From positions 248,001 through 312,000 of the forward strand of contig JACPYL010000025.1 in the NCBI GenBank assembly GCA_016196065.1: a stretch of 64,000 bases of DNA, given 5' to 3'. Of this stretch, positions 21,695-43,310 are shown in pieces (the stretch's first letter is position 1; each line of letters starts with the position of its first letter). The stretch is from Acidobacteriota bacterium (GTDB taxonomy: Bacteria; Acidobacteriota; Terriglobia; Terriglobales; Acidobacteriaceae). The translations under genes were made by a program, and so were the position numbers. Below the pieces are notes generated by a model. The model saw only the letters and a list, made by a program, of their open reading frames with translations, was not told the origin of the DNA and searched no databases.

Positions 21695-21703
21695 GGTAAA
21701 CCT

Positions 21704-21788
21704 CAGTGGCTCGTGATTAGTGATCAGTGGTTAGCGGCCATGCGGTGGTCTCTACTAGCCACCAATCACTGACCACTAACCACTGGTT
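21704..21788. repeat. Heptad array, family D (TAGTGGT), inverted arms
   Basis: The rplQ-rpoA spacer is filled by 7-nt units such as TAGTGAT and CAGTGGT, then by a second arm of complementary units (CACTGAC, CACTAAC). The two arms would pair in the mRNA. Confidence 0.75.
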
Positions 21789-21789
21789 C

Positions 21790-22821
21790 CTATAGGTCGT
21801 TATCCCCGTATGCTGATGCAGGCAGCACCTGGTTCGAAGTCGGTCCGGGTACGGCGTTACCGTGCTCGTCGATCTTCATGCCCAGGCTCAAGCCCATCGA
21901 GGACAGAATTTCTTTGATCTCGTTCAGCGACTTGCGTCCGAAGTTCTTCGTCTTCAGCATCTCGGCTTCGGTCTTCTGCACCAATTCGCCGATGGACTGA
22001 ATATTCGCATTCTTCAGACAGTTGTAGCTGCGCACCGAAAGTTCGAGTTCCTCGACCGACCGGTTGAGATTTTCGTTCTTGATCTCCGGCTTGCGCTCTT
22101 CGTTCGAAGACGCAGTTTCGATTTCTTCTTCGAAGTTGATGAAGATATTCATGTGATCCTTCAGCAACTTCGCGGCGAGTCCGATGGAATCCCCGGGAGT
22201 AATCGAACCATTCGTCCAGACTTCGAGTGTCAGCTTGTCATAGTCGGTGATCTGTCCGAGACGTGCTGCTTCCACGGTGTAATTGCACTTGCGCACCGGA
22301 GAATGCACGGAGTCAATGGGAATGAAGCCGATGCCGAGATCGTCTTCGAAATTCTTGTCGGCCGCGACATAGCCGCGCCCACGCTTGAGGCGCATTTCCA
22401 TGTCGAGCTTGCCGCCTTCGCTTACGGTCGCAATGTAGACTTCCTTGTCCAGAACTTCCACATCGCCGTCGGCTTCAATCATGCCGCTGGTGACAACACC
22501 GGGCTGATCCGCGCGCAGGTAGATCGCTTTCGGTCCATCTCCCGCCAACTTGAATGGAATCTGCTTCAGGTTCAGGATGATGTCGGTCGCGTCTTCAACC
22601 ACGCCGGGAATCGACTGGAACTCGTGCAACACTCCATCGATCTTCACGGCCGTAACCGCCGCCCCTTCGATCGAACTCAGCAACACGCGTCGAAGCGCAT
22701 TTCCGATGGTTGTTCCGAAGCCACGTTCAAAAGGCTGCGCCCAGAACATTCCGTACTTGTCGGTGAGGCCGGTAGCATCGCTTGCCAGCCGTTTCGGTTT
22801 TTGAAAACCCTTCCACAACAT
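21790..22821 (-). CDS. rpoA: DNA-directed RNA polymerase alpha subunit
   Basis: A 343-residue alpha subunit. The N-terminal dimerisation domain shows [20 protein letters not shown] and [17 protein letters not shown]; the C-terminal domain, after a linker near residues 235-250, has [20 protein letters not shown] and [19 protein letters not shown], the helix-hairpin-helix that contacts UP elements and activators. Roughly 20 residues follow the usual C-terminal end. It sits between rpsD and rplQ as in most bacteria, so its dosage follows ribosomal protein synthesis. Confidence 0.98.
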
Positions 22822-22933: not shown

Positions 22934-23012
22934 CTCGCTGTTCGTCGTTCGCTTTCCGTCTTTCGCGACTCGCTGGTCTTAGCGAACAGCGAAGGACGAA
23001 CGACCAACGACG
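22934..23012. repeat. Heptad array, family B, inverted arms
   Basis: In the rpsD-rpoA spacer one arm carries GTTCGTC-type units and the other the complementary AGCGAAG, GACGAAC and GACCAAC units, ending at the rpsD stop. The remaining 22822-22933 holds the rpoA ribosome-binding site and no other recognised signal. Confidence 0.75.
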
Positions 23013-23642: not shown

Positions 23643-23715
23643 GTTGTTCTCCTTCTTTAGATGACCGGTTTACAGGTTTGGCTTCACCCTTCATCCCGGA
23701 CCAAAATCATAAAAT

Positions 23716-23777
23716 CAGTGGTTGGTGATTAGTGGTTAGTGGCTAGTTTTTTAACCACTAATCACCAACCACTAACC
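23716..23777. repeat. Heptad array, family D, inverted arms
   Basis: Units CAGTGGT, TGGTGAT and TAGTGGC run up to a T-rich turn (TTTTTT) and are mirrored by complementary AACCACT, AATCACC units. It occupies about half of the 143-nt rpsK-rpsD spacer. Confidence 0.75.
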
Positions 23778-24226: not shown

Positions 24227-24235
24227 AGTAGCCGT

Positions 24236-24281
24236 TAGCTCCTAGCCACTAGCTCCTAGCTAAAAGCCAGAAGCCAGAAGC
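24236..24281. repeat. Heptad array, family A (TAGCTCC-type)
   Basis: Units TAGCTCC, TAGCCAC and TAGCTAA, then AGCCAGA-like complementary units, fill the rpsM-rpsK spacer. Confidence 0.7.
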
Positions 24282-24673: not shown

Positions 24674-24707
24674 ATGTTTCCGAACCCTTTCCCGCTAACG
24701 CTCAGCG

Positions 24708-24762
24708 GCTTCGAGCTTCGAGCTTCGAGCGTTTTTTGGCTCGCAGCTCACGGCTCGCAGCC
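24708..24762. repeat. Heptad array, family E (GCTTCGA / TCGCAGC)
   Basis: Three GCTTCGA units, a TTTTTT turn, then TCGCAGC, TCACGGC and TCGCAGC units lie between rpmJ and rpsM. The two arms are both heptadic but only partly complementary. Confidence 0.7.
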
Positions 24763-24765
24763 GAT

Positions 24766-24882: not shown

Positions 24883-24947
24883 CAGTTCTCAGTTCTCAGC
24901 TGTCAGTTCTCAGCAACCCCAGATCCCTCGCTTCGCTCGGGATGACA
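24883..24947. repeat. Heptad array, family C (CAGTTCT), plus a TCATCC-type repeat
   Basis: In the infA-rpmJ spacer, units CAGTTCT and CAGCTGT (24883-24913) are followed by a separate palindromic element, GATCCCTCGCTTCGCTCGGG then ATGAC (24920-24947). That element is an inverted copy of the GTCATCCTGAGCGAAGCGAA family also seen at 49091 and 50573. Confidence 0.65.
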
Positions 24948-24955
24948 GCCTGAAA

Positions 24956-25174: not shown

Positions 25175-25187
25175 CGACCCCCTGAAC

Positions 25188-25281
25188 CAGTTCTCAGTTC
25201 CCAGTTCTCAGTTCTCAGAAAAACCCAGATCCGCGAGTTCTCTGGTTTTACCGAGAACTGAGAACTGGGAACCGAGAACTG
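25188..25281. repeat. Heptad array, family C, long inverted arms
   Basis: Four CAGTTCT/CAGTTCC units (25188-25218) are mirrored by GAGAACT and GGGAACC-type units (25250-25281) across a 30-nt centre that also contains partly paired GAGTTCTCTGG. This is the clearest giant hairpin of the set; it fills the map-infA spacer. Confidence 0.8.
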
Positions 25282-25287
25282 ATTTCT

Positions 25288-28984: not shown

Positions 28985-28993
28985 TACTATTCC

Positions 28994-29054
28994 CGCTTCT
29001 GGCTTCTAGCTTCTGGCCACTAGCTAGGAGCTAGTAGCTAGCAGCCAAGAGCTC
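28994..29054. repeat. Heptad array, family A, inverted arms
   Basis: CTTCTGG, CTTCTAG and CCACTAG units pair with GCTAGTA, GCTAGCA and GCCAAGA units; it fills the rpsE-rpmD spacer. Confidence 0.75.
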
Positions 29055-29586: not shown

Positions 29587-29668
29587 CGGCTGCTGGCTTC
29601 TGGCCACTAGCTTCTAGCAAGCAATTTCTTTGATCGCTAGTAGCTAGCAGCCAGTGGCTAGTAGCTCG
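29587..29668. repeat. Heptad array, family A, inverted arms
   Basis: CTGGCTT, CTGGCCA and CTAGCTT units, a 20-nt centre, then CTAGTAG, CTAGCAG and CCAGTGG units fill the rplR-rpsE spacer. Confidence 0.75.
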
Positions 29669-30035: not shown

Positions 30036-30043
30036 GGAATCAG

Positions 30044-30132
30044 TCCTTCGTCGTTCGCTGTTCGTCGCTCGTCTTTCGTCGCTCGCGATTCGCAAAACCC
30101 GCGAACAGCCAACGACGAACCGCGAACGACGG
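30044..30132. repeat. Heptad array, family B, inverted arms
   Basis: GTCGTTC, GCTGTTC and GTCGCTC units are mirrored by CGAACAG, CGACGAA and CGAACGA units in the rplF-rplR spacer. Confidence 0.8.
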
Positions 30133-30677: not shown

Positions 30678-30685
30678 AAGTTCGC

Positions 30686-30738
30686 TCTTGGCTTCTAGCT
30701 TCTGGCTACTAGCTAGGCGCTAGCAGCTGGCAGCTGCT
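30686..30738. repeat. Heptad array, family A, inverted arms
   Basis: CTTCTAG and CTACTAG units pair with GCGCTAG, CAGCTGG-type units; the array fills the 61-nt rpsH-rplF spacer. Confidence 0.7.
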
Positions 30739-31137: not shown

Positions 31138-31211
31138 CTTCTGCTTCTCCTCGAGCCGCCCGTTCGCTCCGCGTCAAGCGGAGAACCTGCAGCAGCTTGT
31201 TTGTTGCTATC

Positions 31212-31274
31212 CGTTGTTCGTCCTTCGCTGTTCGCATCTCGCCTTAGGCGAAGGACGAACGGCGAACGACGACC
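31212..31274. repeat. Heptad array, family B, inverted arms
   Basis: GTTGTTC, GTCCTTC and GCTGTTC units pair with GCGAAGG, ACGAACG-type units around CGCCTTAGGCG. It lies in the rpsN-rpsH spacer; 31138-31211 is otherwise unremarkable. Confidence 0.75.
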
Positions 31275-31467: not shown

Positions 31468-31557
31468 TAGCTCCTAGCTTCTAGCTCTTAGCTTCTAGCT
31501 CAACATCCGGCCGTGCCAAGATCTCTTGCTTCTGCAATCTGACTTCTTACTTCTGCC
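31468..31557. repeat. Heptad arrays, families A and F
   Basis: TAGCTCC, TAGCTTC and TAGCTCT run in perfect phase (31468-31502), followed by family F units TTCTGCA, ATCTGAC and TTCTTAC (31529-31557) abutting the rplE stop. The arms are not complementary here. Confidence 0.75.
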
Positions 31558-32222: not shown

Positions 32223-32331
32223 TTGGCTTCTGGCTGCTAGCTACTGGCTCCTAGCAATCCACGCCTTCCCGGTTCGTGAGTACCTTCAATCCTGAGCACG
32301 CTAATAGCTAGTAGCCAGAAGCTAGCAGCTA
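32223..32331. repeat. Heptad array, family A, widely spaced inverted arms
   Basis: Units CTTCTGG, CTGCTAG and CTACTGG (32223-32257) are mirrored by GCTAATA, GCTAGTA and GCCAGAA units (32300-32331) across 40 nt. In the mRNA, the rplX stop TAG is itself the first three bases of a TAGCTGC unit. Confidence 0.75.
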
Positions 32332-33620: not shown

Positions 33621-33625
33621 AAAAT

Positions 33626-33700
33626 CAGTTCTCAGTTCTGAGTTGTCAGTTCTCAGTAGGAGCTTACTTCTGCAATCCCAACCACTGACCTCTGCAATCT
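33626..33700. repeat. Heptad arrays, families C and F
   Basis: CAGTTCT, CAGTTCT and GAGTTGT units (33626-33658) are followed by family F units such as CTGCAAT and CTGACCT up to the rplP stop. Confidence 0.75.
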
Positions 33701-34120: not shown

Positions 34121-34210
34121 CAGTTCCCAGTTCTCAGTTGCCAGTTCTCAGTAAAAGCTCTTGACCCTGGCGGCTTTTACCTCTGCAATCTGACTTCTAA
34201 CCTTTGCGAT
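34121..34210. repeat. Heptad arrays, families C and F
   Basis: CAGTTCC, CAGTTCT and CAGTTGC units (34121-34152) and family F units CTCTGCA, ATCTGAC and TTCTAAC (34181-34210) lie between rplP and rpsC. Confidence 0.75.
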
Positions 34211-34908: not shown

Positions 34909-34980
34909 CTCGCTGTTCTTGTCGTTCGTCCTTCGCTATCCGCCGTTCGCAAAGCGCGAAGGACGAACCGCCAACGACGC
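34909..34980. repeat. Heptad array, family B, inverted arms
   Basis: TGTTCTT, GTCGTTC and GTCCTTC units pair with GCGAAGG, ACGAACC and GCCAACG units in the rpsC-rplV spacer. Confidence 0.75.
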
Positions 34981-35495: not shown

Positions 35496-35550
35496 TAAGC
35501 TTCCAGCCACTCGCTCTTAGCTCCTAGCCAGAAGCTAGCAGCCAGCAGCG
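35496..35550. repeat. Heptad array, family A, inverted arms
   Basis: TTCCAGC, CACTCGC and TCTTAGC units pair with GCCAGAA and GCTAGCA units in the rpsS-rplV spacer. Confidence 0.7.
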
Positions 35551-36812: not shown

Positions 36813-36903
36813 TTCGGTCGCTCGTCGTCGGTCATTAGTCGTTTGCGATTTCCGCTTGCGCCATCGCTGTTGCCCACGACGAACGACCAGCGACTAACGA
36901 CGC
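36813..36903. repeat. Heptad array, family B, inverted arms
   Basis: TCGGTCG, CTCGTCG and TTAGTCG units are mirrored by ACGACGA, ACGACCA and GCGACTA units in the rplB-rplW spacer. Confidence 0.75.
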
Positions 36904-37930: not shown

Positions 37931-38000
37931 GTCGCTGGTCGTTCGTCGTTGGTCGTTCGCAAAACCCCTAACGACTAACGACCGAAGACTAACGACCGCC
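37931..38000. repeat. Heptad array, family B, inverted arms
   Basis: GTCGCTG, GTCGTTC and GTCGTTG units, a CAAAACCCC turn, then TAACGAC and CGAAGAC units fill the rplC-rplD spacer. The phase is perfect on both arms. Confidence 0.8.
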
Positions 38001-38735: not shown

Positions 38736-38798
38736 TTCCTTCTCCATTCCCAGCTTGGCTCGCCATTTCGGCGGCTATTGGCTGGGTGGTCCATGTGG

Positions 38799-38840
38799 GG
38801 ACAGGTCTCTGACCTGTCCATGCAGGTCGAAGACCTGCAT
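38799..38840. repeat. Twin perfect hairpins upstream of rplC
   Basis: GGACAGGTC/GACCTGTCC (38799-38819) and ATGCAGGTC/GACCTGCAT (38820-38840) stand back to back, each a perfect 9-bp stem with a three-base loop. They replace the heptad arrays found in other spacers of the cluster. Confidence 0.8.
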
Positions 38841-38849
38841 CCACACAAC

Positions 38850-39179: not shown

Positions 39180-39248
39180 GGTGTCACTCTCTTTACCCCT
39201 CCCGGCCTTCCGGGAAGAAAGATCTGGCGGCAAGATGCAAGCCGCTTT

Positions 39249-39306
39249 GTAGCTTCTGGCTGCTAGCTTTTAGCTCCTAGCTGGAGGCTAGTAGCTAGAA
39301 GCTGTA
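39249..39306. repeat. Heptad array, family A, inverted arms
   Basis: TAGCTTC, TGGCTGC and TAGCTTT units pair with GCTGGAG, GCTAGTA and GCTAGAA units in the tuf-rpsJ spacer. Confidence 0.75.
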
Positions 39307-42701: not shown

Positions 42702-42750
42702 TCAGCTTCTAGCTGCTGGCTCCTAGCTAGTAGCTAGAAGCTAGTAGCCG
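42702..42750. repeat. Heptad array, family A, inverted arms
   Basis: CTTCTAG, CTGCTGG and CTCCTAG units pair with TAGCTAG and AAGCTAG units in the rpsG-fusA spacer. Confidence 0.75.
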
Positions 42751-42753
42751 TCT

Positions 42754-43310
<557 letters not shown>

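Follow-up and report, generated by a model that had tools for sequence, protein, structure and literature searches.

The ribosomal-protein operon of this genome (5.5 Mb) holds in its intergenic gaps 7-base repeats arranged as mirror-image arms that are able to form hairpins, which raises the question whether these stems are maintained as RNA or whether their arms evolve together as DNA. Compensatory changes are usually the best evidence for a functional RNA, and misjudging such a case would load RNA databases with stems not selected as RNA. The window analyzed here is the whole stretch of 64,000 nucleotides (G000:C25:248001-312000), in which the S10-spc-alpha operon, with genes identified via their translation, lies wholly on the minus strand, with rpsL at about 43.7 kb at one end and rplQ at 21.2 kb at the other. 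Our index case is the map-infA spacer, where arms at 25185-25225 and 25244-25284 (41 nt) are 90% complementary. The initial annotation had pointed to 25188-25218 and 25250-25281, which are the repeat parts of these arms, and to complementary arms in most spacers of the operon; such two-armed spacers are indeed present.

Folding was assessed in mRNA sense for 29 spacers of at least 25 nt, with 300 dinucleotide shuffles per spacer. The map-infA RNA (minus strand, 113 nt) folds at -70.3 kcal/mol versus -33.0+-3.3 kcal/mol for its shuffles, none of the 300 being as low (z=-11.2). No more than 3 of 300 shuffles were as low (p<=0.01) in 13 of the 29 spacers, with 0.3 expected. After map-infA the strongest folds are those of rpoA-rplQ, rpsK-rpsD, rpsJ-rplC and rplR-rpsE, followed by rpsM-rpsK, rpsD-rpoA, rplV-rpsC, rplF-rplR (1/300 shuffles as low) and rplW-rplB, and then by tuf-rpsJ, rpsN-rpsH and rplX-rplE (z scores are listed below). 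Folds are weaker for rplC-rplD and rpsE-rpmD, with 13 and 10 of 300 shuffles as low respectively, and no better than shuffles for rpsC-rplP, rplP-rpmC, rplE-rpsN, infA-rpmJ, rpmD-rplO, secY-adk and adk-map. Several of the non-significant spacers hold one array at the downstream start codon. Spacers with such a lone array (infA-rpmJ, rplE-rpsN) or with non-pairing arrays (rpsC-rplP, rplP-rpmC) fold like their shuffles and thus provide an internal control: the repeats by themselves do not make the signal. The long hairpins that had been proposed are borne out by these energies, lower than those of the shuffles, and among the examples originally named map-infA and rplF-rplR are firm and rplC-rplD and rpsE-rpmD weaker. 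The statement that most spacers are two-armed has to be narrowed: about half carry strong hairpins and most carry at least one array, but several hold a single array or two arrays that are not complementary. The features are as follows, in window coordinates.

25175-25287, minus strand: map-infA spacer, index hairpin, CAGTTCT family, 18-nt loop; z=-11.2
21703-21792, minus strand: rpoA-rplQ hairpin, TTAGTGG/CAGTGGT family; z=-6.4
22935-23012, minus strand: rpsD-rpoA hairpin, GTCGTTC family; z=-4.0
23717-23773, minus strand: rpsK-rpsD hairpin, TTAGTGG family, perfect 22-bp arms and 13-nt loop; z=-6.2
24229-24281, minus strand: rpsM-rpsK hairpin, TAGCTTC family, spanning the whole spacer; z=-4.1
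24674-24765, minus strand: rpmJ-rpsM hairpin, AGCTTCG family; z=-3.6, 4/300 shuffles as low
24883-24913, minus strand: lone CTR-type array immediately 5' of the rpmJ start codon, without partner arm; z=-1.5
28990-29052, minus strand: rpsE-rpmD hairpin, TAGCTTC family; z=-2.2
29589-29663, minus strand: rplR-rpsE hairpin, TAGCTTC family; z=-5.3
30043-30131, minus strand: rplF-rplR hairpin, TCGTTCG family; z=-3.6
30681-30736, minus strand: rpsH-rplF array pair, TAGCTTC family, weak fold; z=-1.2
31209-31272, minus strand: rpsN-rpsH hairpin, TCGTTCG family; z=-2.8
31468-31500, minus strand: lone CTR-type array at the rpsN start, without partner arm; z=-0.2
32224-32331, minus strand: rplX-rplE hairpin, TAGCTTC family, long loop; z=-2.5
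33625-33657, minus strand: array 5' of the rpmC start, non-complementary to the upstream array of the spacer; z=-0.8
34121-34152, minus strand: unpaired array 5' of the rplP start; z=-0.5
34913-34978, minus strand: rplV-rpsC hairpin, TCGTTCG family; z=-3.9
35513-35549, minus strand: rpsS-rplV array pair, TAGCTTC family; z=-1.6
36817-36901, minus strand: rplW-rplB hairpin, TCGTTCG family; z=-3.3
37931-37996, minus strand: rplC-rplD hairpin, TCGTTCG/TAGTCGT family; z=-2.2
38778-38849, minus strand: rpsJ-rplC spacer, two non-heptamer palindromes, GCAGGTCTTCGACCTGC and GGACAGGTCAGAGACCTGTCC; z=-6.1
39247-39303, minus strand: tuf-rpsJ hairpin, TAGCTTC family; z=-2.9
42704-42748, minus strand: rpsG-fusA hairpin, TAGCTTC family; z=-2.2
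43270-43309, minus strand: rpsL-rpsG post-stop array (TAGTCGT), partner array non-complementary; z=-1.6

An Rfam search of the window gave no match at the gathering threshold, and a known structured RNA family was rejected on this result. Other elements were noted as well. In some species palindromes of a different kind (GTAGAGACGCGGCTTGCCGCGTCTC, GACGGGCGCCCTCGCCCGTC, GGACAGGTCAGAGACCTGTCC) replace the heptamer hairpins, as in the rpsJ-rplC spacer of the window and in L083, L085, L091 and L097. A separate REP-like palindrome, TCATCCCGAGCGAAGCGAGGGATCT and variants of it, occurs in the infA-rpmJ spacer (window 24919-24950; L088, L096, L095) and elsewhere. The rpsD-proximal part of the rpsK-rpsD spacer (window 23643-23715, minus strand; also L081-L099) is conserved and structured-looking, and exists within one genus in two alternative versions, GTCCGGGAYGAAGGGTGAAGCCAAACCTGTAAACCGGTCATCT before a TTG start and CAATCGGGACGAAAGGGTCGCCACCCCGTAAACCGATTTC before an ATG start; this segment, without Rfam match, may be an S4 autoregulatory leader.

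The arrays are periodic at 7 and its multiples alone, and have a preferred location. In the window, lag 7 gave 23 arrays, whereas lags 4, 5, 8 and 10-13 gave none. A census over 1.22 Mb of the genome, taken as stretches with genes called by a hexamer-model script, counted, at lag 7, 93 arrays between genes and 9 inside them, with 0-4 intergenic arrays at other non-multiple lags. The sequence AGTTCTCAGTTCTCAG (at most one mismatch) has 86 copies in the genome and its reversed control none, and 22 of 23 other genomes of the same genus were positive for the repeat. Within the 1.22 Mb arrays lie in 70/549 co-directional, 11/132 convergent and 6/155 divergent spacers, and they occupy 19 of the 29 ribosomal-operon spacers versus 51 of 520 other co-directional ones. 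They are commoner beside genes with ribosomal-like codon usage (p=1.7e-5), a modest association in which expression is inferred from codon usage. Elements are mostly 50-110 nt long, with many unit families and unrelated loops; copies of one family within this genome share an identical order of unit variants around unrelated loops, which suggests copying between loci besides local homogenization.

Arrays start 0-8 nt past a stop codon or end a few nt short of a start codon, and their orientation follows the gene edge. Units at the left of a spacer are YAGNNNY (CAGTTCT, TAGCTTC, CAGGTGT, TAGTGGT) and those at the right are the reverse complement, the TCGTTCG family being a variant. This polarity is obeyed by 54 of 62 classified gene-edge arrays, with 8 that do not, and is found in convergent and divergent spacers too. 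Being mirror-symmetric and valid for convergent spacers, the rule concerns the edges of genes in DNA and not the message. A purine-rich 3' arm was considered as the rule and abandoned, as it fails for the TTAGTGG family, where the 5' arm is about 0.6 purine; YAG at the left and CTR at the right was adopted.

The operons of 19 genomes of the same genus (394 spacers) and 65 more distant loci were compared with the window. The relatives with the same gene order include soil and peat MAGs labelled Acidobacteriaceae, Terriglobia, Terriglobales and Candidatus Sulfotelmatobacter; they are mostly metagenome assemblies, in which arrays near contig ends may be missed, and for genes outside the window the start positions are extrapolations from alignments. 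Hairpin scores in the genus have a median of 11 and a 95th percentile of 24, versus 6 and 8 in shuffled sequence. At an orthologous spacer the unit family can be replaced wholesale between species (CAGTTCT, TAGCTTC, TCGTTCG, TTAGTGG, CAGGTCT or the 8-mer GGTTTCAA) and the arms still agree. The sum of arm complementarity within species is 4223, versus 2996+-64 when 3' halves are permuted among species (19 SD; maximum of 1000 permutations 3217), in counts that are not fully independent as the 394 spacers share descent. Co-switching of arms is directly visible at rpsM-rpsK, map-infA and rplF-rplR, and across the family. Arm changes are coordinated between species, and the refuting observation named in the initial annotation, compensatory changes absent between strains, is not what is seen. 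Correction of arms is incomplete, as at rpsM-rpsK in G010 and G013 some 5' arms have switched family with the 3' arm unchanged. An 8-base unit family, AAGGTTTC, builds the same two-armed type of hairpin (L088, L099, L181, L187, L189, L195; rpsM-rpsK, rpsK-rpsD, rplB-rpsS), so that the period is not tied strictly to 7 in every family.

Occupancy is uneven: arrays are present in 23 of 28 spacers in the genome studied here, in 4 of 24 in G020 and in none of 26 in G022. The last, a member of the same genus with Ku present (locus L095), offers a natural comparison strain. Among 388 spacers 20 carry two arrays that are not complementary, 134 are single-sided and 118 have none. In other genera period-7 arrays were found in 31 of 61 map-infA and 29 of 50 rpsM-rpsK spacers, with hairpins in 30 and 31 respectively, the latter spacer having several unit families. 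Spacer-specific architecture is kept across genera, with rpsM-rpsK and map-infA usually a hairpin and infA-rpmJ usually a single pre-start array. Two further observations concern the map-infA spacer and more distant relatives. In L088 (G006), L096 (G012), L149 (G119) and L150 (G050) the intact infA has upstream of it an incomplete copy of its start (ATGAGTAAAGAAGACGCGATTGAAGTTGAGGCGT or similar) and after this copy an insertion; and in G090 and G097, of the same class and another family, CAGTTCT/CAGTTGT pairs of opposite orientation lie 110-260 bp apart, a wider spacing than in this genus.

The stems would form in the transcript too, and RNA and DNA can be told apart by strand symmetry. Were pairing in the transcript preserved, changes would be expected to go by way of G.U on the mRNA strand, and sense RNA would be expected to fold better than antisense. 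In stems detected with a score that weights all mismatches equally, the G.U:A.C ratio of mRNA-strand mismatches is 209:199 in the genus and 139:123 in other genera (pooled 348:322, p=0.33), compared with 10:2 in tRNA stems of the same sequences, a small control. Between the nearest orthologous stems 86 single changes led to G.U and 93 to A.C, no preference for G.U, and double changes numbered 70 versus 26 expected if independent, 39 of the 70 keeping Watson-Crick pairing. Uncorrected, sense folds were better than antisense ones (-3.4 kcal/mol over all spacers, p=5e-24); this was considered as a sign of RNA selection and vanished in hairpin spacers after composition correction, made by shuffling the letters of each spacer itself: the corrected excess is -18.6 kcal/mol in sense and -18.5 kcal/mol in antisense, a difference of -0.08 (p=0.95). 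The same palindromes also stand between convergent genes, and in some spacers arrays are retained without pairing. With no G.U excess and equal folds on both strands the arms are coordinated, but not as transcript selection would act, and the base pairs of the transcript stems are not measurably kept by RNA selection. This argument is statistical, and G.U may still be weakly preferred, at up to about 56% of transition mismatches. A role as mRNA stem, which the annotation had put forward, is thus not supported. The structure of the arrays, their periodicity, polarity and location, the co-switching of arms and the strand symmetry are read directly from the sequences compared.

Taken together, we think it on balance probable that these palindromes, built of variable heptamers, keep fixed places between genes and undergo concerted evolution as DNA, by slippage and by template switching between arms. 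The architecture is 5'-(YAGNNNY)n - loop - (RNNNCTR)n-3'. Slippage would expand and homogenize the tandem units, and intrastrand template switching (quasi-palindrome correction) would let one arm template the other, so that a unit family could change completely with the arms remaining complementary. Arrays accumulate in co-directional and convergent spacers, chiefly in the ribosomal-protein operon; high transcription, with its exposed single strands and R-loops, may promote template switching, and short promoter-free spacers would tolerate arrays. A single template-switch event can generate a perfect stem, and another can fix compensatory changes (PMC8794818), quasi-palindrome events in yeast are promoted by high transcription (PMC3820800), and heptamers are over-represented in many bacteria, the polymerase footprint having been suggested as the reason (PMC4692102). 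Template switching, the effect of transcription and the heptamer bias would together explain why units are tandem, why arms are paired and switch together, why the strands are symmetric and why the ribosomal operon is enriched. We infer that slippage and template switching generate the arrays, and likewise the link to transcription. Paired double changes are in excess and arms co-switch; no single template-switch event is resolved, the species compared being about 85-93% identical in protein and too distant. The weak points are edge polarity and conserved spacer choice, which these mechanisms alone do not explain and which could reflect an ancestral set of arrays or a function; the conserved spacer architecture across genera is not required by a purely neutral process. 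Non-homologous end joining with both ends extended, which would explain polarity, was rejected, as Ku does not track array counts: G008 (99% complete) and G020 (96%) have many arrays and no Ku match, and G022 has Ku and no operon arrays.

The conserved positions bring in function, and selection for intercistronic mRNA hairpins (as RNase III substrates, as a block to exonucleases, or for insulation or coupling of translation) would conserve shape alone, with any palindrome serving. It agrees with stems far more stable than shuffles, with a stem base near the upstream stop codon (median 4 nt), with concentration in an operon of high expression as judged by codon usage, with spacer-specific presence kept across genera, and with unrelated palindromes of GTAGAGACGCGGCTTGCCGCGTCTC and GGGCGCCCTCGCCC type standing in for heptamer hairpins at the same spacer. 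We nevertheless regard it as unlikely, given G.U not in excess of A.C on the mRNA strand, equal sense and antisense folds, the many spacers of the 388 whose arrays are non-pairing, single-sided or absent, and G022, without arrays in 26 spacers; concerted evolution of the DNA fits better. A mixed scheme appears distinctly unlikely to us, in which hairpin positions fixed across the family are selected for shape, the stem folding the spacer away and joining stop and start codons so that termination-reinitiation replaces Shine-Dalgarno-dependent initiation, and heptamers are exchanged by copying between arms in DNA. The pre-start array could alternatively be the functional part, a CTR-type leader for initiation without Shine-Dalgarno sequence to which the upstream arm is secondary, as in the TAACTGA proposal for Beggiatoaceae. 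Indeed 66 of 123 pre-start arrays end 2-6 nt ahead of the start codon; a Shine-Dalgarno-like motif is present at 17 of 112 array-preceded starts versus 98 of 234 others, with anti-SD pairing also weaker (mean +0.8 kcal/mol, p=0.02) when the comparison is made within genes; at rpmJ and rpmC a solitary pre-start array is seen repeatedly in different genera; and AACTGAG is one base from the Beggiatoaceae AACTGAT. Post-stop-only spacers (76), however, are as frequent as pre-start-only ones (58), the mirror rule holds also at stop codons and between convergent genes, and loss of the motif is expected merely from an array occupying its place, which makes a leader quite improbable in our estimate. 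At the motif-poor starts, which belong to essential genes, the array may itself take part in initiation, translation may start by coupling to the cistron upstream, or the array may do no more than fill the place.

Dispersal is the remaining theme: mobile REP/MITE-type palindromes, carried about by a Y1 (RAYT-like) transposase and found in spacers since genes exclude copies, would account for the many copies with the same unit-variant order at different loci of one genome, for lineage-specific expansions (TAGCTTC-type counts of 79 in G011, 3 in G002 and 58 in G031) and for an apparent empty site of 13 nt at map-infA in G023. Loops differ between copies, however, similarity within a genome is barely above that between genomes at different spacers (at least 14: 22% versus 18%), and array-rich genomes can lack Y1 transposases (G061, 98% complete, 0 Y1 and 40 hits; G009, 0 Y1 and 77 hits) while genomes poor in arrays have them. 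RAYT-type mobility was rejected as Y1_Tnp counts do not track array counts, and we hold a mobile family very improbable. Integron attC sites are palindromes with 7-bp boxes after stop codons; they were set aside, since here a core operon has many-heptamer arrays in its spacers, and not cassettes. Intrinsic terminators were judged unlikely, the stems lying inside a co-directional operon with no T-run after the stems that were read.

As a natural system, hundreds of orthologous stems with co-changing arms yet strand-symmetric pairing can separate covariation by DNA copying from covariation by RNA selection. Acidobacteriota now join Xanthomonas, Nostoc and Beggiatoaceae, for which separate reports describe the odd combination of a heptamer period with mirror polarity at the edges of genes, and the questions raised are why seven and why gene edges. 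In the open-licence papers searched, the multi-family, ribosomal-operon-wide and family-switching form in Acidobacteriota was not found. With an intergenic period of 7, dispersed copies and an empty reversed control, the arrays are heptameric intergenic tandem repeats of the STRR-like kind. Among described systems the heptamer repeats of Xanthomonas and Nostoc and the P6b stem of a Nostoc intron come nearest. Those of Xanthomonas and Nostoc, GGGAATC and GGGGA(C/T)T, are likewise intergenic period-7 arrays with many stem-loop pairs of opposite orientation (70-75 per Xanthomonas genome), fall in frequency from co-directional to convergent to divergent spacers, lie on the coding strand downstream and the non-coding strand upstream of genes, which is the same mirror rule, and occupy the same gene pairs in related species with varying sequence and length (PMC4692102). 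They differ in being one G-rich family per genome, with proposed quadruplexes and a spread over functional classes (PMC4692102), whereas here many families share a YAGNNNY core, G-runs are irrelevant, one family replaces another at a given spacer, and arrays are strongly concentrated in the ribosomal-protein operon. The TAACTGA repeats of marine Beggiatoaceae resemble ours as heptamer arrays a few nt 5' of starts with few ribosome-binding sites, in some ribosomal-protein operons, and in a near-identical unit of the same orientation (AACTGAT versus AACTGAG), but they are a single family with one inverted repeat in 170 sets and no hairpins (PMC4679880); our units vary around YAGNNNY, and inverted pairs, rare among the direct TAACTGA repeats, are common. 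REP/BIME elements of the GTAG- and CGTC-tagged superfamilies (PMC3733652) are also short many-copy intergenic palindromes between co-transcribed genes, but of 20-40 bp, tagged at one end and without a 7-nt period; the present arrays are not one conserved palindrome of this size and tag and do not require Y1, as G061 and G009 show. The P6b stem of the Nostoc tRNA-Leu(UAA) intron is built of heptamers with complementary repeats, two unrelated unit classes interchanging with the structure kept (PMC4476775). There this happens at one locus inside a functional group I intron (PMC4476775), whereas here it extends over many spacers and many classes, between genes.
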